A stretch of DNA of 64,000 bases from Chitinophagaceae bacterium (GCA_947455215.1 CANGNA010000017.1:1-64000), one strand, 5' to 3'; numbered from the stretch's first letter, positions 40,797 through 51,329 are shown. The notes: generated by a model from the letters alone, not told the origin. Translations and numbers: made by a program.

Positions 40797-41264
40797 TTAA
40801 GATAACAATTGTTGCCTCACCAAGAATTCCAGCTGCTCGTTGCTGAGTGTCAGCTTGGCGTTCATTTCCTTCTCTTCTATCTTTTCCTTGTAAACAGCAT
40901 ATGCCCGCTGTATGGTCATATCCAGTTCTTCCTCGTTCCAGGGCTTGGATAAATAGTGGAATATCTTGCCTTTATTTACAGCATCTATTACCGCAGTCAT
41001 ATCGGCATAGCCGGTAAGCAAAATGCGGGTAGGCAGCGGAAACTCATCTAATATACTCTCCAGGAACTCTACACCGGTCATTTGCGGCATACGCTGGTCG
41101 GTGATGATCACGTTTACAGTATTGTTCCTTAACATCTTTATCGCCTCTTCTCCACTGATCGCCGTTAATATGTTATACTTTATCCTAAACACCGCTTTAA
41201 AAGAGATAAGATTATTCTCCTCATCATCTACATACAGAACCGATATCTTATCAACTTTCGCCAT
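40797..41264 (-). CDS. Single-domain response regulator
   Basis: 155 aa. A CheY-like receiver fills residues 7-125: acidic pocket D13/D14, phospho-acceptor D56 in IITDQRMP, T84 in LLTGYAD and K107 in SKPW. The DQRMP signature is typical of receivers found with HD-GYP or kinase partners. A short helical tail (KEKIEEKEMNAKLTLSNEQLEFLV) follows, with no DNA-binding domain, so output is by protein contact. It is transcribed away from the kinase island and is a close relative of the receiver at the start of the hybrid kinase at 46571. Confidence 0.93.
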   Translation of the reverse strand: MAKVDKISVLYVDDEENNLISFKAVFRIKYNILTAISGEEAIKMLRNNTVNVIITDQRMPQMTGVEFLESILDEFPLPTRILLTGYADMTAVIDAVNKGKIFHYLSKPWNEEELDMTIQRAYAVYKEKIEEKEMNAKLTLSNEQLEFLVRQQLLS

Positions 41265-41384: not shown

Positions 41385-43688
41385 ATGTTAACAGAAAAAT
41401 TACAATTCACAAAACAACTTAATAACAGCTATCAGCCTGTATTTTTCAGGCTCCATGATGCACACCAGAAACTGGCTTTCGAACAATTGCTGGATTCGAA
41501 ACCACATATGATGGCCCACGATACTATGTGGGCACAGTTAAAAGAACTGGTAAAATCAAATAATCCGTCCCGCACCCTCTCTATGGACGAAATAGAGGCC
41601 GGAATAAAACAGCACCTGGGCACCACCCCAATGCACGAATATGGCGTGTGGGTATACTACCCATGGAGCGAACGCGTAGTACATATATTAGACGAAGAAG
41701 AATTTAAAGAATTAAGAACCAACAGGAACAGGTACAAAATAACACGTGCAGAGCAGGATACGCTCCATAGCAAAAAAGTGGGGGTCATCGGCCTTTCCGT
41801 AGGCCAATCGGTATCACTTACCCTGGCCATGGAGCGTGGCTTTGGCGAACTGAGGATAGCCGATTATGACGACCTGGAGATCACTAACCTGAACAGGTTG
41901 CGTAGCGGCGTGCACAATATGGGACTATTAAAGACTGTGCTGGTAGCCAGAGAGATAGCGGAAATAGATCCATACCTGAAGGTGACACCGTTTCACGAAG
42001 GCATAACAGAAGAGAATATCGAAAGTTTCCTGCTGGATAACGGCAAACTGGACGTATTGATAGATGAATGCGACGGTGTGGAGGTAAAGATAAAATGCCG
42101 CATAGCGGCCAAGAAACACGGCATACCCGTGCTTATGGAGGCCAGCGACAGAGGCACAATAGATATAGAACGCTTTGACCTGGAACCAGACAGGCCAATA
42201 CTGCATGGCAAGGTAGAGCACCTGGACCTGAGCAAGGTGAAGGAAGCCAAAACCATGGAAGACAAACTCCCGTACCTGCTGCCGATAGTAGGTATAGAGA
42301 CCATGTCTACCCGCCTCAAGGCATCGGCAGTAGAAATTGGCCAGACGATCAATACGTGGCCGCAACTGGCCAGCGCAGTAACCCTTGGTGGCGGCATTAC
42401 TGCCGACATCTGCCGCAGGGTGTTGCTGGACCAGGTACATGTGTCCGGCCGCTGGTTCATTGATATTGAAGACCTTATAGGCGACCCGAAACCCAAACAG
42501 AAAGAATACGACTACGATATACCACCTGTAACAAAGGAAGGGCTGAGAGCAAAAGCCGCACAGGTGCCCCATACGCCAGTTAACGGCGCTATCACAGATA
42601 CAACAGTAATCAACCAACTGATAGAAGCGGCGGCCATTACACCGTCTGCGGGCAACAACCAGCCGTGGCGTTTATACTATGACGGCCAGCGGATTGTATT
42701 GTTCGATGATCCCGTGCGCTCTGCGGCATTTGCCAACTACCGGAATATGAAGACCTTCTTTTCCATGGGATCATTGCTGGAGAATGTAGATCTGAAGGCA
42801 AAAGAACTGGGTATTGGCCTGGAAGTAAAACTGTTCCCGCTAAAGGAACAGGGCATCTACGATCCCGTGGCCACTATCATACCTTACAAAAAAGAGCATG
42901 TACAGAAAGATGAGCTGATCAACTACATGTACACCCGCCATACCAATCGCAAGCCGGGCGACCCATCAATACGCATCTCTTTAGATGCATGGGCCGAAAT
43001 GAAACAGGCGATAGCCCCTGTGAGTGCGGTGCAGATGATAGTAACAGAAGACCAGGCGGTGATACAGAAGATGGCCGATATTGCCGGCCGGGCCGAAAAA
43101 CTGAGGATGTTTGTACCTGAGGGTCATGCAGACCTCTTCCGCAGGGAGATACGCTGGGATGCGGAAAGCGCCATCAACACGCGCGACGGACTTGACATAC
43201 GCACACTGGACCTTAAGGCCAAAGATGCTGTGGGCTTCAGGGTGATACAAGATCCACGTGCTATTCAATTGGTGGCCGGCTGGAAAATGGGTAAGTCGCT
43301 GGAAGACATGTCCAAAAACCTTGTCGCTACGTCTTCAGCAGTGTGCCTGTTCATGGTACCTGAGTTTACACCCGAAAATTGTGTAGCCGTAGGGCATGCA
43401 TTAGAACGTATATGGCTGGTGGCTGAAAAGCATAAAATAGCCCTTCAGCCTATGATGGCTACCATTTTACACCTTATAAGGCTTAACCATGGGGGTGGTG
43501 ATGCCATGCCGGCAGATGTACGCGAAGAATTCGTTGTGCTGCAAAAGGAGTTTGTTCAATTATTTAACTTATCTTCAACAAAGCAAGTACCCTTATTTTT
43601 ATTCAGACTCTTCATATCCGACGAACCCGAAGTAAGATCACTACGATTGAATATTGATGAGATCTATATTTCGGACACTAATAACTAA
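41385..43688 (+). CDS. E1-like adenylyltransferase / nitroreductase fusion (Rv1355c-like)
   Basis: 767 aa. After an N-terminal region of about 125 residues comes a ThiF/E1-like ATP-binding domain: GVIGLSVGQSV (133-143), RIADYDDLEITNLNR with D160, N168 and R171, and K183. There is no zinc-binding CxxC pair. From about residue 408 to 700 there is a nitroreductase-like flavin domain (AAAITPSAGNNQPWRLYYDG). This pairing is that of the Rv1355c family, whose reaction is not established. The acyltransferase-like gene begins 2 bp after its stop and a sensor kinase follows, so it probably makes or modifies something sensed by the kinase cluster; this is inference. Confidence 0.88.
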   Translation: MLTEKLQFTKQLNNSYQPVFFRLHDAHQKLAFEQLLDSKPHMMAHDTMWAQLKELVKSNNPSRTLSMDEIEAGIKQHLGTTPMHEYGVWVYYPWSERVVHILDEEEFKELRTNRNRYKITRAEQDTLHSKKVGVIGLSVGQSVSLTLAMERGFGELRIADYDDLEITNLNRLRSGVHNMGLLKTVLVAREIAEIDPYLKVTPFHEGITEENIESFLLDNGKLDVLIDECDGVEVKIKCRIAAKKHGIPVLMEASDRGTIDIERFDLEPDRPILHGKVEHLDLSKVKEAKTMEDKLPYLLPIVGIETMSTRLKASAVEIGQTINTWPQLASAVTLGGGITADICRRVLLDQVHVSGRWFIDIEDLIGDPKPKQKEYDYDIPPVTKEGLRAKAAQVPHTPVNGAITDTTVINQLIEAAAITPSAGNNQPWRLYYDGQRIVLFDDPVRSAAFANYRNMKTFFSMGSLLENVDLKAKELGIGLEVKLFPLKEQGIYDPVATIIPYKKEHVQKDELINYMYTRHTNRKPGDPSIRISLDAWAEMKQAIAPVSAVQMIVTEDQAVIQKMADIAGRAEKLRMFVPEGHADLFRREIRWDAESAINTRDGLDIRTLDLKAKDAVGFRVIQDPRAIQLVAGWKMGKSLEDMSKNLVATSSAVCLFMVPEFTPENCVAVGHALERIWLVAEKHKIALQPMMATILHLIRLNHGGGDAMPADVREEFVVLQKEFVQLFNLSSTKQVPLFLFRLFISDEPEVRSLRLNIDEIYISDTNN

Positions 43689-43690
43689 TA

Positions 43691-44377
43691 ATGACGTCAG
43701 TTATATTCAGAGCTTTTCGTGCAGTGGATGACCCCGACTCGTGCCAGAAATTCGTTCTTGGACACAGGGCGGTACTGGAGTCGTATGGTATCACCATGAT
43801 CACATCTAATAACGCGCTCTGGGCTGAACATAAAAATACCTATGTAATACTTGCAGAGGCTCCTGATGACCACAGGGCACTTGGAGGCGTAAGGATACAG
43901 ATATCCGACGTTGATTTTGCATTACCCATCGTACATGCCGTAGGACAAGTAGATGATAAGATACATGAGGTCATCAGTCGCCAGACGGGAAAGGTGATAG
44001 CGGAGGCCTGCGGACTGTGGAACGCCCGGGAAATAGCAGGTTATGGCTATAGTTTCTTCCTGCTCAGGTCGGCCATAGCATTGGCCTACCAGCTTAAAGT
44101 AGAGTCGCTTTATGCGCTGGCTGCACCGGTAACAGTAGACATGTGTCTGAATGCAGGCTTCATCATTGAACGCTACCTGGGTAAAGACGGCTTTTTCAAT
44201 TACCCGAAATTAGACCTGGTGGCTACGGCCATGGTCATCAACGACCTGGGACAAATGAGCCACGCAACAGATGTAGACAAAAGCCATATCTTTGACCTTA
44301 TGCACAATCCGGTACACACGGCTACAGTAAATGGCCCGAAAGGAGACGTGACTATTGACTATAGATTGCAATTCTGA
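43691..44377 (+). CDS. GNAT-fold N-acyltransferase-like protein
   Basis: 228 aa, soluble, no signal. The start (VIFRAFRAVDDPDSCQKFVLGHRAVLESYGI) and the central AEAPDDHRALGGVRIQ (strand then acyl-CoA-side loop) resemble the GNAT fold of autoinducer-synthase or FeeM-like N-acyl amino acid synthases. GLWNAREIAGYGYSFFLLRSAIALAYQLKVESLYALA fits the following helix and strand. No strict catalytic signature is visible, so the family call is tentative. It is tightly packed: 2 bp after the E1-nitroreductase gene and 4 bp before the kinase start at 44382. Confidence 0.68.
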   Translation: MTSVIFRAFRAVDDPDSCQKFVLGHRAVLESYGITMITSNNALWAEHKNTYVILAEAPDDHRALGGVRIQISDVDFALPIVHAVGQVDDKIHEVISRQTGKVIAEACGLWNAREIAGYGYSFFLLRSAIALAYQLKVESLYALAAPVTVDMCLNAGFIIERYLGKDGFFNYPKLDLVATAMVINDLGQMSHATDVDKSHIFDLMHNPVHTATVNGPKGDVTIDYRLQF

Positions 44378-44381
44378 AAAC

Positions 44382-46514
44382 ATGAGGAAACAACAGCGTA
44401 AAATACACCTGGCTGCTGCCATATTTATGCTCATTTGCCTGTTCGCCGGCACCGGCAAGGCTGTGGCACAAGCGGGGGTAACCATGAATGTGTCTGTTCT
44501 TGAAGACAAAAACCGGGAATGGTCGGCACAACAGGTGTTATCTATGCCTTTTACTGCCGAAGCCACCAATACGCTTAATTACGGGCTTACCAAATCTGCC
44601 TACTGGCTCAAGATAAAGGTCACCAACTTAACCGATGATGACGACCTGCTGTTCAAGATACAAAACGGCACCATTACCGAAGCTACGATGTACGATCTGC
44701 CTTTAAAAGGTGTTGAGCGGCATATAGGCGATCTGGTACCTTTTAGTGCACGCGAATACAATACACAATTCCCGGTATATCGCGTTCGCCTGCCGCGCGG
44801 TACCAGCGGCGAATACCTGCTGCGCCTGGCCACCAATGCGGTGATGGACATACCCATGACCGTGGATAAAGAAGTTACCGTACTGGAAAGCATTAATAAT
44901 GATCAGCTGTTCTTTGGGATATACTTTGGTATCATTATGGTGATGTTCTTTTACAACATCTTCATTTACCTCACCGTACGCGATAAGAACTACCTCTATT
45001 ACGTAATGTATATCCTGGTAGTGGGATTGTTGCAAGCAACCCTCAAAGGATATTCATCTAAATTTCTGTGGCCCGAAAGCACGGTACTGAAACTGCAGGC
45101 ACCTAACATACTCATTGCCCTGTCTGGTGTATTTTCTATTTTCTTTGTTTTCAACTTCCTCAATCTCAGACGGTACTCTAAGGCTCTGTTTTATGCGCTT
45201 TGGGCGTTGAACGTTGCCTACTTTGCGGGTATAATAGTGAGTATGACAGGCAACTTTGTAATGGCCCAGCAAATGCTGCAAGGCATTGCAGGGCTGGTTG
45301 CCATCACCATGATGATCGCCGGTATTTATATTTATAAAAAGGGATATCGCCCGGCAATATTCTTCACCGTATCGTGGTCGTTTTTCCTGGCAGGCGTTGT
45401 CATATACATCCTGAAAGATGCCGGGGTATTTCCTTTCAATACTTTCACGAGCAACGCCATCCTGATAGGCTCCAGCCTGGAAGTTGCGTTACTTTCTTTT
45501 GCACTTGCTGATAAGATAAATACGTACCGAAAGGAAAAAGAAGAATCGCAGGCCATAGCCCTCGAAGCATTGAAAGAAAATGAAAAGATCATCACCGAGC
45601 AAAACATTGTATTGGAAAGAAAGGTAAATGAGCGCACACACGAACTGAACCTATCGAACCAGGAACTAAATAAGGCCATGAAGGAACTGAAAGAGGCGGA
45701 AACGCAGCTGGTTGAGTCCGAAAAAATGGCTTCTCTCGGTCAGTTGACAGCAGGTATTGCCCATGAGATCAACAACCCGATCAACTTCGTTACATCTAAC
45801 GTAAAGCCGCTGAACCGTGATGTGCACATGCTGCTGGATACAGTAGATACCATGGAAAAACTGGTATACGAAGACATTCCTGTAGAAGAAAAAAGGAAAC
45901 AGATAGAGGAATATAAATCGGACATTGATTACGACTACCTGAAAGATGAAATAGGCCAGCTGTTGCATGGCATTGGTGAAGGTGCATCGCGCACGGCAGA
46001 AATAGTGAAAGGTCTGCGCATCTTCTCGAGGCTGGACGAAGATGATCTGAAAAAGGCAGACATCAACGAAGGCCTTGATTCTACGCTCATCATTGCCAAC
46101 AACCTGTTCAGCAACGTGATAAAGGTTGAAAAACAATACAACAACCTCCCACTGATCGAATGTTACCCGGGCAAACTGAACCAGGTTTTCCTTAACATGA
46201 TATCGAACGCTGTGTATGCGATAAAGAAGCAACATGGGGAGAAGGAAGGCGGTTTACTTACAATTAAAACCTACTTGTCGGACGACAATTACCTGGCAAT
46301 ATCTATTGCAGATAATGGCACGGGAATGGACGAGAATACCAGGAAGAAATTATTTGAACCTTTCTTCACTACAAAGGATGTAGGTGAAGGAACAGGACTC
46401 GGTATGTCCATCGCTTACAACACGATCATTAAGCATAATGGGCTTATAGAAATTAATTCAGAATTAGGCAAGGGAACGGAATTTATCATTAAATTACCAT
46501 TGATTCAAAAATAA
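44382..46514 (+). CDS. 7TMR-DISM sensor histidine kinase
   Basis: 710 aa from ATG 44382 (MRKQQRKIHLAAAIFM, signal peptide ending AVAQ); starting at 44355 would overlap the upstream gene. The extracytoplasmic part (about 25-170) is a 7TMR-DISMED2-like jelly-roll (YWLKIKVTN, YRVRLPRGTSGEYLLRL). Seven membrane helices follow (about 175-380), then a coiled coil, then the kinase: H461 in GQLTAGIAHEINNPINF and the ATPase domain with N box (NQVFLNMISNAVYAI), DNGTGM and GEGTGLGMSIAY. This receptor type is thought to bind carbohydrate or other small ligands outside the cell. Confidence 0.95.
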   Translation: MRKQQRKIHLAAAIFMLICLFAGTGKAVAQAGVTMNVSVLEDKNREWSAQQVLSMPFTAEATNTLNYGLTKSAYWLKIKVTNLTDDDDLLFKIQNGTITEATMYDLPLKGVERHIGDLVPFSAREYNTQFPVYRVRLPRGTSGEYLLRLATNAVMDIPMTVDKEVTVLESINNDQLFFGIYFGIIMVMFFYNIFIYLTVRDKNYLYYVMYILVVGLLQATLKGYSSKFLWPESTVLKLQAPNILIALSGVFSIFFVFNFLNLRRYSKALFYALWALNVAYFAGIIVSMTGNFVMAQQMLQGIAGLVAITMMIAGIYIYKKGYRPAIFFTVSWSFFLAGVVIYILKDAGVFPFNTFTSNAILIGSSLEVALLSFALADKINTYRKEKEESQAIALEALKENEKIITEQNIVLERKVNERTHELNLSNQELNKAMKELKEAETQLVESEKMASLGQLTAGIAHEINNPINFVTSNVKPLNRDVHMLLDTVDTMEKLVYEDIPVEEKRKQIEEYKSDIDYDYLKDEIGQLLHGIGEGASRTAEIVKGLRIFSRLDEDDLKKADINEGLDSTLIIANNLFSNVIKVEKQYNNLPLIECYPGKLNQVFLNMISNAVYAIKKQHGEKEGGLLTIKTYLSDDNYLAISIADNGTGMDENTRKKLFEPFFTTKDVGEGTGLGMSIAYNTIIKHNGLIEINSELGKGTEFIIKLPLIQK

Positions 46515-46570
46515 CCACCCTTTATACACTATAAGAAAACAAGAACCGTTAGCAGGTATAAATCAGGGAA

Positions 46571-47671
46571 ATGGAAAAGAAGATCAAGGTTTTATATATC
46601 GACGACGAGCAGAATAACCTGGTGGGCTTTAAAGCTACCTTCAGGTTCGACTATACCGTGCTTGTTGCTGCGACAACAGAAGTGGCCAGACAGCTTCTTG
46701 CCGACAACCCGGATATCAGGATCATATTGTGCGACCAGCGCATGCCCGACCAGACAGGTGTACAGTTTTTTGAAGAGATACGCTTTAAATATCCGGAGCC
46801 CATACGTATGCTTATCACCGGCTACACGGACATAGAATCTGTTATTGATGCGATCAACCGCGGTAATATTTACAGGTACATCAAAAAGCCGTGGACAGAT
46901 ACCGATATACAAAGCGCTATAGAAGAAGGCAATAAGTTCTACCTTACTAATAATTTACTGGCACTTAAAAACAAAGAACTTCAGTCGGCATATGATGAGT
47001 TGGGCAAATTTGCCTACAGTGTAACGCACGATATGCGCGGGCCACTGCTCAGTGTATCGGGGGCAATAAGCATAGCCGAAAACTGTACCGATATAAATGA
47101 AATAAAAGAAATACTTGGCATGATGGACTCCGCTATCAAAAAGCTGGACGAGTTCATTACCAATGTGCATGATTATTACAGCATGAAGCGTGGACAGCTG
47201 GTTTTTGAAGAGATCAACTTCAACAAAACGCTTAACGACTGTGTGGCACTCTTCCGCATTGCGGGCACAATGGAACATATCAGTTTCCTGTCGTCGGTAA
47301 AGCAGGATGTGCCTTTCTTCTCCGACGAAGTGACGATAAAAATAGTGCTCACCAACCTTTTATCCAATGCGGTGAAGTATCAACGTAAGTCTGTAACAGA
47401 TAAATTTGTTGATGTGAACATTGAAGTAAATCAAACCAATGCTATTATCTTTGTAAAAGACAATGGCATTGGCATACATGACGACCATATAAACAATATA
47501 TTCGACATGTTTTACAGGGCTACATCGGAAGAAGCAGGGTCCGGGTTTGGCTTGTATAATGTGAAGGATGCGTTGTCTAAACTTGGGGGCACTATCGAGG
47601 TGTCTTCCAAATTGAACGAAGGAACCTCATTCAAAGTTACTATCCCACAGAAAGCAAATGGCAACAAATAA
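46571..47671 (+). CDS. Receiver-histidine kinase hybrid protein
   Basis: 366 aa, cytoplasmic. The N-terminal receiver (4-125) has D11/D12, phospho-acceptor D55 in ILCDQRMP and K105/K106 near KKPW. A helical linker leads to a HisKA-like segment with H153 in AYSVTHDMRGPL and an ATPase domain (LTNLLSNAVKYQ, VKDNGIGI, GSGFGLYNVKDAL). The order receiver-then-kinase suggests that phosphorylation by the upstream kinase controls its own kinase activity. It lies 56 bp downstream of the 7TMR-DISM kinase and overlaps the next receiver gene by 14 bp. Confidence 0.94.
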   Translation: MEKKIKVLYIDDEQNNLVGFKATFRFDYTVLVAATTEVARQLLADNPDIRIILCDQRMPDQTGVQFFEEIRFKYPEPIRMLITGYTDIESVIDAINRGNIYRYIKKPWTDTDIQSAIEEGNKFYLTNNLLALKNKELQSAYDELGKFAYSVTHDMRGPLLSVSGAISIAENCTDINEIKEILGMMDSAIKKLDEFITNVHDYYSMKRGQLVFEEINFNKTLNDCVALFRIAGTMEHISFLSSVKQDVPFFSDEVTIKIVLTNLLSNAVKYQRKSVTDKFVDVNIEVNQTNAIIFVKDNGIGIHDDHINNIFDMFYRATSEEAGSGFGLYNVKDALSKLGGTIEVSSKLNEGTSFKVTIPQKANGNK

Positions 47672-48062
47672 ATTGCAGCATTTTATTGTTATTGATGACA
47701 GTAAACTTGATTGCTTTATTGCCGAAAAGGTAATAAAGAATACAGGTAAATGCGAATCGGTAACGTCATTCCTACAGGCACAGGAGGCCCTGGAATTCAT
47801 CAAGCAAAACTCGCTCAACAGCCTGGATCCAATTATTGTGCTGGTAGACATACAGATGCCGATAATGAACGGGTTTGAATTTGTAGAAGCCTTCGAAAAG
47901 TTGCCGGTGAATACGCGAAAAAACTACCATATCTACGTTATCTCCTCTTCTATCAACGACAACGACCTCACCAAGATACCGCAATACCCATCTGTTATAC
48001 AGTTCATCAATAAACCACTGACCAGCAACAATCTCTCTGCCCTGCTGGCTAAAGACAAGTAA
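47658..48062 (+). CDS. Single-domain response regulator
   Basis: 134 aa, receiver only: IDDSK at the N-terminus, a phospho-acceptor Asp in IIVLVDIQMPIMNGFEF (about residue 57) and K118 in INKPLTS. The IDDS...LVDIQMP pattern is the Bacteroidota type often found after cytoplasmic kinases. It begins inside the last codons of the hybrid kinase gene, which strongly implies co-translation and a direct phosphotransfer partnership. No output domain. Confidence 0.93.
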   Translation: MATNKLQHFIVIDDSKLDCFIAEKVIKNTGKCESVTSFLQAQEALEFIKQNSLNSLDPIIVLVDIQMPIMNGFEFVEAFEKLPVNTRKNYHIYVISSSINDNDLTKIPQYPSVIQFINKPLTSNNLSALLAKDK

Positions 48063-48127: not shown

Positions 48128-48162
48128 TCATACAAAGTGACTTTTTGACCCAAATCCCCCAT

Positions 48163-49404
48163 ATGGATATTCAAAGTATCAAGAACAGGTTTGGAATAAT
48201 AGGTAATTCTCCGGCGCTCAATCACGCCCTCAATACCGCGGTCCAGGTTGCCAATACCGACCTGTCTGTATTAATTGTAGGCGAAAGCGGTGTGGGCAAG
48301 GAAATATTTTCCAGCATTATACACAATCTTTCGTCGCGCAAGCATAACCCTTTTATAGCCGTAAACTGCGGAGCCATACCTGAAGGCACAATAGACAGTG
48401 AATTGTTTGGCCACGAAAAAGGATCTTTCACCGGCGCCGTTGATAGCCGTAAAGGCTACTTTGAGACCGTAAACGGCGGCACCATCTTCCTGGATGAGAT
48501 CGGCGAAATGCCCCTGGGTACACAGGCACGCCTGCTGCGTGTACTGGAAACAGGGGAATTTATACGCGTGGGTTCTTCAAAAGTACAGAAGACCGACGTG
48601 CGTGTTATAGCAGCTACCAATCGCGACCTGCTGGAGTTTACCTCCCAACATAAATTCCGTGAAGATCTTTATTATCGCCTGAGTACAGTACCGATCAGGG
48701 TACCTGCCCTGCGCGACCGAAAGGAAGACATACCGTTACTGTTCCGAAAGTTTGCAGCAGATTTTGCTGAACGATATAAAACAACATCTATCCAGATGGA
48801 TCCTGTTGCACAGCAGATGCTGGTCAACTATCCGTGGAGGGGTAATGTACGCGAATTAAAAAATGCCGCCGAGCAGATATCGGTATTGTCTACCAATAAA
48901 CAGATAACCGCCGATGTATTGCAGCAGTTCCTGCCCCAGCGCGACAATATGAGCATGGCGCTTGTGCCCGCCGGCCAAAACATGAATAATGGCACACCAC
49001 AGGGCGATTTTGCGAGTGAACGGGATATACTGTACAAGCTCTTCTTCGACATGAAGAAGGATATGAACGACCTGAAACAGATGATATTCGATGTAGCCAA
49101 TCACCAGGGATATACCCCGGCTGACCCCGGCGCTAAGAATATACCTGTGTATAACGATGCTGAGCCTATCACGCACGTAACATATAATGCTCAGCCTGCA
49201 GGCATGAACACTCCTATCCTTCTTGACCCGGGCATGCATCACGAAGATGTAGAAGAAACGCTCTCATTAGCCGACAAGGAAAAGGAAATGATCAACAAAG
49301 CGTTGAAGAAACATAAGAACCGCCGCCGCGATGCTGCAGCAGAGCTGGGCATCAGCGAACGTACACTTTACAGGAAAATAAAAGAATACGACATAAAGGA
49401 GTGA
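48163..49404 (+). CDS. Sigma-54-interacting AAA+ activator, no N-terminal sensor domain
   Basis: 413 aa from ATG 48163. The AAA+ domain starts almost at the N-terminus: Walker A GESGVGKE (40-47), the sigma-54 contact loop GSFTGA (87-92) and Walker B TIFLDE (107-112), with arginine-finger region FREDLYYRL. A long, poorly conserved linker (about 265-365, with a helical segment LYKLFFDMKKDMNDLKQMI) leads to a Fis-type helix-turn-helix (RRDAAAELGISERTLYRKIK). With no receiver or GAF domain its control must come from another protein or from its level. It follows the kinase island and precedes bioD by 24 bp. Confidence 0.95.
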   Translation: MDIQSIKNRFGIIGNSPALNHALNTAVQVANTDLSVLIVGESGVGKEIFSSIIHNLSSRKHNPFIAVNCGAIPEGTIDSELFGHEKGSFTGAVDSRKGYFETVNGGTIFLDEIGEMPLGTQARLLRVLETGEFIRVGSSKVQKTDVRVIAATNRDLLEFTSQHKFREDLYYRLSTVPIRVPALRDRKEDIPLLFRKFAADFAERYKTTSIQMDPVAQQMLVNYPWRGNVRELKNAAEQISVLSTNKQITADVLQQFLPQRDNMSMALVPAGQNMNNGTPQGDFASERDILYKLFFDMKKDMNDLKQMIFDVANHQGYTPADPGAKNIPVYNDAEPITHVTYNAQPAGMNTPILLDPGMHHEDVEETLSLADKEKEMINKALKKHKNRRRDAAAELGISERTLYRKIKEYDIKE

Positions 49405-49428: not shown

Positions 49429-50046
49429 ATGCAAAGACTCTTTGTAACTGCCATAGACACTAATGCCGGCAAGACCGTAGTAGCCGCCATTATAGCCGAA
49501 GCACTGAATGCCGACTACTGGAAACCGATACAATCCGGCGAACTGGACAATAGCGATACTATGAAGGTGCGCTCATTAATAAGCAACCCGACGACAGTAT
49601 TCCACCCCGAAACCTACCGGCTGAAAACACCGATGTCGCCGCATGCAGCTGCGGCACGTGATCACATAACCATTGACCTGGATAACATACACATTCCGGG
49701 CGCGAATAACCACCTGGTGATAGAAGGCGCCGGAGGACTATTAGTGCCGGTGAATAATGATGAGTTTGTGGTTGACCTGATCAAAAAACTGGATGTGGAG
49801 GTCGTGCTGGTGAGCCGGCATTATTTAGGGAGCATCAACCACACCCTATCGGCGGCCATGGTGCTTAAAGACAGGGGCATCAAGGTAAAAGGCATCATCT
49901 TTAATGGCGAAGAAATAGAGGGTACAGAAGACATTATACTGAAACACACTGGCTATACCTGCCTTGGCCGCATTGATGAGGAAGAGGTAATAGACAGGGT
50001 GATGGTGAGCCGCTATGCTCATCAGTTACGCCAAACGCTGCTATAA
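49429..50046 (+). CDS. bioD: Dethiobiotin synthetase
   Basis: 205 aa. BioD closes the ureido ring of dethiobiotin from 7,8-diaminopelargonate, CO2 and ATP. The P-loop reads FVTAIDTNAGKTVVA with K15; the usual GTDT is AIDT here, but the other landmarks are present: WKPIQSGE (K for carbamate), MSPHAAA and the EGAGGLLVP signature. The gene lies 5 bp upstream of bioA, the preceding step of the pathway. bioB and bioF are not in the window. Confidence 0.93.
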   Translation: MQRLFVTAIDTNAGKTVVAAIIAEALNADYWKPIQSGELDNSDTMKVRSLISNPTTVFHPETYRLKTPMSPHAAAARDHITIDLDNIHIPGANNHLVIEGAGGLLVPVNNDEFVVDLIKKLDVEVVLVSRHYLGSINHTLSAAMVLKDRGIKVKGIIFNGEEIEGTEDIILKHTGYTCLGRIDEEEVIDRVMVSRYAHQLRQTLL

Positions 50047-50051
50047 AGGAT

Positions 50052-51329
50052 ATGTCAACAATGAACGCAGATTGGAACAGCAGAGACAAAGCACATGTAT
50101 GGCATCCGTTCACACAGGTTAGCTATGCGCCGGATAACATTCTTATAGAAAGGGGTGAAGGGTCATGTTTTATCGATGCAGACGGCAATAAATTCATTGA
50201 TGGCATATCATCGTGGTGGGTGAATCTGCATGGGCACTGTCACCCCCATATCATTGAGGCAATAACCGCTCAACTGCACCAGCTGGAGCATTCCATATTT
50301 GCAGCATTTACACATAAACCAGGCATAGCACTGGCAGAGCGATTGCTAACGCATCTGCCCGGGTTTGACAAAGTATTCTTTTCCGACAATGGCTCTACTG
50401 CGGTTGAAGTGGCATTGAAAATGACCTTCCAGTATTGGGCTAATAAAGGCACACCTAAAACCAAGGTAATTGCATTTAAGGATGCATACCACGGCGACAC
50501 ATTCGGCGGCATGTCTGTAGCTGCGCGCAATGCATTCAACAAGCCTTTTGAACCATTGTTGTTTGATGTAATTGCCATAGACCTGCCAACAGACAACAAC
50601 ATTTCAGATATCCTGCAGCAAATGGAGGCTGCATTGCAACATGAAGATGTATCGTGTTTCATATTCGAGCCACTTGTGCTGGGGGCCAGCGGGATGCTGA
50701 TGTATAGCGCTGCTCACTTGCAACAACTGATCACACTGTGCCGCAAATACAACTGCCTGACCATTGCCGACGAGGTGATGACAGGTTTTGGCAGAACAGG
50801 ACAGTTCTTTGCGATTGATCACCTGGAGGGCAGGCCAGATATAGTGTGTATATCTAAGGGTATTACAGGCGGCTTTTTTGCATTGGGCGCTACCGCGTGC
50901 AGGCAGTTCATTTTCGATGCCTTTGTGAGCAGCGATAAAATGAAAACATTTTTCCACGGTCATTCCTATACCGGCAACCCAACTACCTGTGCCGCCGCTA
51001 TTGCCAGTATGGACCTTATGGAAGACACTGCAACGCTTAATAAAATTCAGCACATAGCGTTAAGCCACACAGCCTTTGCTGCAGAGCTATGCAACAATCC
51101 ACGTATTGAAAACGTACGGCATACCGGGACCATCCTGGCATTTGATATAAGGACAGGAGAAAGCACGAACTACCTGAACAATGCGGCAGAGCCATTAGCG
51201 GCATTTTTCCTGAAGCGGGGTATTATACTACGCCCTTTAGGAAATGTGGTTTATGTACTACCACCCTACTGCATAACAGACCTAGAGCTTGCAAGTATTT
51301 ATCAGGCGATAAGGGAACTGCTGCAATAG
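50052..51329 (+). CDS. bioA: Adenosylmethionine-8-amino-7-oxononanoate aminotransferase
   Basis: 425 aa, normal length. BioA transfers the amino group of S-adenosylmethionine to 7-keto-8-aminopelargonate. It is a class III PLP aminotransferase: WHPFTQ near the start, GISSWWVNLHGHCHP (family-specific SSWWV), TIADEVMTGFGRTG with the PLP-interacting Asp, and the Schiff-base lysine K269 in VCISKGITGG. It runs in the order bioD-bioA with a 5-bp gap and meets a convergent gene 4 bp later, with no clear terminator between. Confidence 0.97.
   Translation: MSTMNADWNSRDKAHVWHPFTQVSYAPDNILIERGEGSCFIDADGNKFIDGISSWWVNLHGHCHPHIIEAITAQLHQLEHSIFAAFTHKPGIALAERLLTHLPGFDKVFFSDNGSTAVEVALKMTFQYWANKGTPKTKVIAFKDAYHGDTFGGMSVAARNAFNKPFEPLLFDVIAIDLPTDNNISDILQQMEAALQHEDVSCFIFEPLVLGASGMLMYSAAHLQQLITLCRKYNCLTIADEVMTGFGRTGQFFAIDHLEGRPDIVCISKGITGGFFALGATACRQFIFDAFVSSDKMKTFFHGHSYTGNPTTCAAAIASMDLMEDTATLNKIQHIALSHTAFAAELCNNPRIENVRHTGTILAFDIRTGESTNYLNNAAEPLAAFFLKRGIILRPLGNVVYVLPPYCITDLELASIYQAIRELLQ

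Follow-up and report, generated by a model that had tools for sequence, protein, structure and literature searches.

A gene module for probable synthesis and signalling in a Chitinophagaceae genome

We analysed a 64,000-nucleotide stretch of DNA (hereafter, the window) from a Chitinophagaceae bacterium (GCA_947455215.1, CANGNA010000017.1:1-64000), focusing on a module in which two predicted biosynthetic enzymes are encoded next to a membrane sensor kinase and its receiver partners. The original prediction for this DNA had described five plus-strand genes at 41385-48062, separated by gaps of 2, 4 and 56 bp and joined by one overlap of 14 bp, and both the open reading frames (ORFs) and their domains were confirmed. 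It had overlooked a minus-strand receiver gene that also belongs to the module. The genes are as follows.

40797-41264, minus strand: stand-alone receiver, divergent, 155 amino acids (PF00072); conserved module member
41385-43688, plus strand: gene 1, TrzS/Rv1355c-type fusion with a ThiF cyclase domain (about residues 1-365) and an Acg-type flavin-dependent oxidase domain (about residues 400-767) (NF005901, PF00899, PF00881)
43691-44377, plus strand: gene 2, predicted N-acyl amino acid synthase with the FeeM/acyl-homoserine lactone (AHL) synthase fold; TrzA-like in position and fold
44382-46514, plus strand: gene 3, 7TMR-DISM sensor histidine kinase (PF07696, PF07695, PF00512, PF02518)
46571-47671, plus strand: gene 4, receiver (REC)-histidine kinase (PF00072 with HisKA and HATPase)
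47658-48062, plus strand: gene 5, stand-alone receiver (PF00072); a frequent but not universal member

The synthase gene is paired with one clade of sensor kinases

Scanning 84,980 species genomes yielded 463 places that encode relatives of gene 2, and the best 80 of the 463, which were fetched, have the arrangement seen in the window. In a set of 101 non-redundant loci, 92 extend 3 kb or more downstream, and in every one of these the 7TMR-DISM kinase adjoins the synthase (two of them were initially scored negative solely because of an ORF overlap of more than 60 bp). Of the 76 full-context loci, 71 include the REC-kinase and 72 the divergent receiver. Gene 2 is adjacent to gene 1 in all 16 relatives that have the latter, three of which carry only its ThiF half, and the kinase genes come next as far as the contigs reach. 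The module order is kept in dozens of genera and several families while the flanking genes vary freely, a conservation of gene order far beyond chance.

Genomes sampled independently of the synthase gave the same picture. In an even sample of 149 genomes from the family of the window, gene 2 occurs in 48 and the sensor in 47, all within the 48; both genes are thus present in 47 genomes, the synthase only in one, the sensor only in none and neither in 101 (Fisher p 3e-38, a value that ignores relatedness). Sensor scores in this family are at least 339.5 bits in genomes with the synthase, versus a best of 239.5 in the 101 that lack it. The lone exception is genome G522, where a 4.5-kb contig bears gene 2 and, at its end, the first part of the sensor gene. 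In a phylum-wide sample gene 2 was present in 13 of 395 genomes, and direct inspection revealed the sensor at all 13 loci. The synthase gene in Bacteroidota is practically inseparable from one 7TMR-DISM kinase clade. The original prediction would have been refuted had the enzymes and kinases not occurred together in other genomes; they do so, as one conserved unit.

A contig labelled Azovibrio restrictus, a proteobacterium, also bears a Bacteroidota-type module (L133), probably reflecting an error in binning of a metagenome-assembled genome.

Genes 1 and 2 resemble the enzymes of oxazolone biosynthesis

Gene 1 matches the NCBIfam 'Rv1355c family' (NF005901) over its full length, with 728.7 bits across residues 10-760 against an equivalog cut-off of 476. 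Judged from its sequence, it is an Rv1355c/TrzS-type fusion of a ThiF cyclase and a flavin oxidase, and its two parts align with different structures in the PDB, the ThiF part with TcdA and MoeB and the C-terminal part with Acg (2ymv). The ThiF adenylation residues are an R and a K within the NxNR...K motif and an ATP-contacting Asp (D217 in M. smegmatis TrzS, a numbering inferred by offset). The corresponding R171, K183 and D230 of gene 1 are invariant in the 16 relatives, and line up with the mycobacterial and rhodococcal Rv1355c proteins as well. A basic residue and a QP motif are conserved in the region of R540 and Q651, the FMN-oxidase residues of TrzS, and may correspond to them. The adenylating domain of the original prediction is most likely a carboxyl-activating cyclase.

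Gene 2 has no match in Pfam or NCBIfam (E 0.001), none by sequence in the PDB, and none in a plasmid collection, although actinobacterial Rv1355c genes are present there. Its AlphaFold2 model (pLDDT 89.8) has FeeM (2g0b) as the best PDB match (Foldseek E 2.2e-9; VIA Z 17.7, rmsd 2.4, 175 residues aligned), followed by the AHL synthases BjaI, LasI, RpaI and TofI. GNATs of the plain type, for example 1xeb (Z 17.0), equal FeeM in Z score but align over only 145 residues. Gene 2 is thus modelled as a likely N-acyl amino acid synthase of the FeeM/LuxI fold, and because there is no family match at the sequence level we class it by its fold and its likely function and do not count it among the members of a sequence family.

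The same combination of enzymes is known from the mycobacterial trzAS (Rv1356c-Rv1355c) and tyzACB pathways and from OxzAB (Pseudoalteromonas rubra), in which a ThiF cyclase and a flavin-dependent oxidase likewise stand beside an N-acyltransferase of the FeeM/AHL synthase fold. The trzAS pair of Mycobacterium and Rhodococcus, reported in 2025, acylates L-tryptophan, then cyclises and desaturates it to an N-acyl tryptazolone, and TyzA of the sister pathway has the FeeM/AHL synthase fold as well (PMC12856293, PMC10404671). The cyclase and oxidase are fused in TrzS, as in gene 1, and are separate neighbours in Tyz. The module differs from trzAS in its gene order, which is mostly S before A, and in its kinases; the M. 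tuberculosis pair adjoins c-di-GMP genes. The enzymes of genes 1 and 2 probably make an N-acyl oxazolone, because the equivalent trzAS pair does (PMC12856293).

Two candidate relatives of gene 2 were rejected: the gene 2 profile finds no match in the first 339 residues of a 974-residue Nitratidesulfovibrio ThiF protein, considered as a fusion of genes 2 and 1, nor in a GNAT beside ThiF on a Streptomyces plasmid. This plasmid (L207:5830-8727) encodes a MerR-type regulator, the ThiF protein (45% identical to the ThiF domain of the window) and the GNAT protein in a row, without a kinase. On a Rhodococcus plasmid (L206:3626-4777, 5818-7950) an Rv1355c-family gene lies near a GGDEF gene, a neighbourhood that resembles M. 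tuberculosis trzAS beside its c-di-GMP genes and is another case in which this chemistry is associated with genes for signalling. Within the module family, two tandem copies of gene 2 precede a single sensor kinase at L036:7796-9760 and L160:9231-10681 and could yield two related products. The ThiF gene of Cyclobacterium qasimii (L172:8906-10014) is split into two ORFs by a frameshift or an assembly error.

Tailoring enzymes are exchanged around a constant core

The slot beside the synthase, tallied over 48 family loci including the window, holds a ThiF protein with an oxidase in 21 and a ThiF protein alone in eight. An ICMT-like membrane methyltransferase takes its place in seven (L109:10317-10955, L203, L277, L284, L285, L295 and L301), a UbiE-like methyltransferase in two and a FAD-binding_4 oxidase in one, and the slot is empty in nine, two of which are cut by a contig end. 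Mapped on the sensor tree, the slot has undergone at least 15 changes, or at least 6 by chemistry class, with the ThiF forms merged. Tailoring enzymes are exchanged within the module while the synthase-receptor core stays. Since the slot changes repeatedly, we define the fixed core as the synthase, the 7TMR-DISM kinase, the REC-kinase and, usually, the divergent receiver.

The sensor part of gene 3 covaries with the synthase

Gene 3 combines a periplasmic DISMED2 domain (PF07696, 76.5 bits), a seven-transmembrane (7TM) region (PF07695, 163.5 bits), HisKA and HATPase. Matches of its 7TM model to Wntless and to G protein-coupled receptors were read only as the common seven-helix arrangement. DISMED2 is the fastest-evolving part of the protein (median distance 0.78 vs 0.46 for the kinase), and its nearest solved structure is the periplasmic domain of RetS (3jyb; Z 15.9, 133 residues aligned).

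On the sensor tree, a single supported branch (SH-aLRT 96) parts the 73 linked sensors from the 17 closest unlinked ones, and linkage changes state once, versus 15.8 times in shuffles. A strict exclusiveness of the sensor to the synthase holds within the window's family and fails beyond it; related DISM sensors without a synthase occur in other classes, where they fall outside the linked clade.

After correction for the kinase domain and gene 4, the pairwise divergence of gene 2 is correlated with that of DISMED2 (partial r 0.204) and that of the 7TM part (0.225), with 0 of 500 permutations in either case. The gene 3 kinase domain contributes nothing further with the others controlled for (0.043; 127 of 500 permutations).

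A two-stage kinase cascade is likelier than a phosphorelay

The phosphorylation sites of the module are strongly conserved: H461 of gene 3 is invariant (16/16), gene 4 keeps D55 (82/83) and H153 (83/83), and the phosphoacceptors D64 of gene 5 (54/54) and D56 of the divergent receiver (84/84) are present throughout. Among the module proteins there is neither a histidine phosphotransfer (HPt) domain nor a histidine carrier lacking a kinase core between the receivers, and gene 4 has HisKA with a complete HATPase whose N- and G-box residues are conserved. A cascade of two coupled kinase-receiver steps is therefore likelier than the three-step phosphorelay of the original prediction, given the missing HPt domain and the complete kinase core of gene 4. 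No receiver of the module carries a DNA-binding output domain, and therefore the output is not visible within the module. In one distant member (L105:3244-4653) a REC-PAS-HisKA_3 protein takes the place of the REC-kinase.

Proposed mechanism and alternative explanations

Judging from its fold and homologues, gene 2 would N-acylate an amino acid using acyl-CoA or acyl-acyl carrier protein. As in TrzS, the ThiF domain of gene 1 would then adenylate the carboxyl group and cyclise the intermediate to an oxazolone, which the flavin domain would desaturate; in relatives, other tailoring enzymes or none would act at this point. The reactions characteristic of the TrzS family are an ATP-requiring cyclisation and an O2-requiring desaturation of N-acyl amino acids. 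The DISMED2 and 7TM parts of gene 3 may sense either the final compound or the N-acyl amino acid from which it is formed, and so control the attached kinase. H461 would phosphorylate the gene 4 receiver (D55), the divergent receiver or both, and from gene 4 the signal would pass through that protein's own kinase (H153) to gene 5, the single receiver. Because the module has no DNA-binding output domain, the output would run via protein contacts or unlinked partners.

We consider it reasonably probable that the module makes an acylated amino-acid compound and senses a product of the pathway through gene 3 as a dedicated receptor. The idea that the cell makes a metabolite and senses it stands as the best reading; the enzymes and kinases are one conserved unit, whereas sensing of the product itself is what we infer. 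More tentatively, the modules could form a Bacteroidota-wide family in which a LuxI-fold synthase and interchangeable carboxyl-capping or oxidising enzymes give rise to signal dialects, each with a matched 7TMR-DISM kinase. These dialects might comprise oxazolones, methyl esters and plain N-acyl amino acids as one signal class, a possibility that we rate at slightly less than even.

Several observations weigh against product sensing. No exporter was found in the module, and mycobacterial tryptazolones mostly remain in cells, though acyl-amino acids are found in the supernatant (PMC12856293). Strict synteny would also be expected if the kinases merely controlled production. Across the phylum, 7TMR-DISM relatives without a synthase reach 333 bits with the sensor model, overlapping the weakest linked sensors (296-306); because these gene 2-less sensors of other classes score so high, the sensor family extends beyond its pairing with the synthase. 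Gene 4 keeps a partial correlation with gene 2 divergence as well (0.162; 14 of 500 permutations). Since the sensor-synthase correlations are small in size and tree structure is controlled for only in part, we take the covariation as supporting, not decisive.

DISMED2 domains are carbohydrate-binding-like, and that of gene 3 is structurally nearest to RetS, as might be expected if the kinases sensed an unrelated cue, such as envelope state, a glycan or stress, and switched on production of an oxazolone lipid or antibiotic that itself goes unsensed. Proteobacterial oxazolones have also been reported to be stress-inducible (PMC12856293). We nevertheless regard this as unlikely: a general switch should stand beside other pathways too, yet the sensor clade is found only with the synthase; it is the sensor part, not the kinase part, that covaries with the synthase; and none of the receivers carries a DNA-binding output.

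It is still less probable that the kinases detect a membrane-active or antibiotic product so that the producer can limit damage or output. N-acyl amino acids and stieleriacines do have antibiotic activity (cited in PMC12856293), but the module has no conserved gene for export, resistance or repair, and loci without a tailoring enzyme retain the whole receptor cascade. That two adjacent operons without a functional link co-travel by descent or transfer is very improbable, even though nearly all fetched loci come from one phylum (the sole exception being the probably misbinned contig), as the module persists over many genera and several families with freely changing flanks and has tailoring genes swapped inside it.

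Genes flanking the module

Directly downstream of the module lies a sigma-54 activator without a receiver domain (48145-49404), a possible local output or a mere neighbour; it is kept in this position in the window's genus (L033, L034, L036, L037 and L039) and is not conserved outside it. The following putative bioD and bioA (49429-51329) would be ordinary biotin genes by similarity to the loci of relatives. Between the divergent receiver and gene 1 there is no match to a sigma-54 promoter; a Bacteroidota-promoter-like match is present there, which is not evidence by itself. A thioredoxin gene adjoins the divergent receiver at L107:8707-9024 and L109:8438-8755 (both minus strand), and several more members of the family have an ORF of that length at the equivalent position.

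Relation to known systems and significance

In LuxM/LuxN, CqsA/CqsS and LqsA/LqsS, the gene for a signal synthase is accompanied by genes for a membrane sensor kinase and for receivers downstream of it, a pairing principle known from vibrios and Legionella. The module has the same organisation, and the genetic pairing of a synthase with a dedicated membrane kinase, a criterion for quorum sensing, is found in it. It differs in that its synthase is FeeM-like and not LuxM- or CqsA-like, its receptor is a 7TMR-DISM protein, its tailoring enzymes are exchangeable and its signal is a putative one. By analogy, the module is best read as a LuxM/LuxN-like synthesis-and-sensing system assembled from other protein families. 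Gene 3 shares its DISMED2, 7TM and kinase architecture with RetS, LadS and SagS, none of which is known to us to lie next to the gene of a ligand synthase. SagS is reported to respond to glucose-6-phosphate (PMC8544897).

The enzyme kit of N-acyl amino acid synthase, ThiF protein and nitroreductase is shared with the stieleriacine, thalassotalic acid and kyonggic acid clusters, with a methyltransferase variant in Stieleria (PMC12479983); no sensor kinase is reported in those clusters, unlike in the module. The two oxazolone papers on trzAS and tyzACB make no mention of kinases, and we found no description of a kinase coupled to oxazolone chemistry in the openly accessible papers searched. The enzyme pair, described between 2023 and 2025, and the 7TMR-DISM kinases are already known; their coupling is what appears to be new. 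The claim of an undescribed system thus falls for the enzyme pair, which is of the trzAS kind (PMC12856293), and holds only for the link to the 7TMR-DISM kinase. There is a fair chance that the module represents a distinct signalling family.

The 2025 tryptazolone paper regards the physiological role of bacterial oxazolones as a major unresolved question and treats signalling as speculation only (PMC12856293). The one-to-one, phylum-wide pairing of synthase and receptor makes oxazolone signalling directly testable in harmless cultured species of Pedobacter, Parapedobacter and Cyclobacterium, and supplies candidate ligands for 7TMR-DISM receptors. The module is a candidate cell-cell signalling system of Bacteroidota in which the receptor is constant and the tailoring enzymes are swapped; if the dialect family proves true, natural oxazolones would for the first time have a receptor class dedicated to them. 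The pairing suggests a so far undescribed way for Bacteroidota to make and sense a chemical signal of their own.

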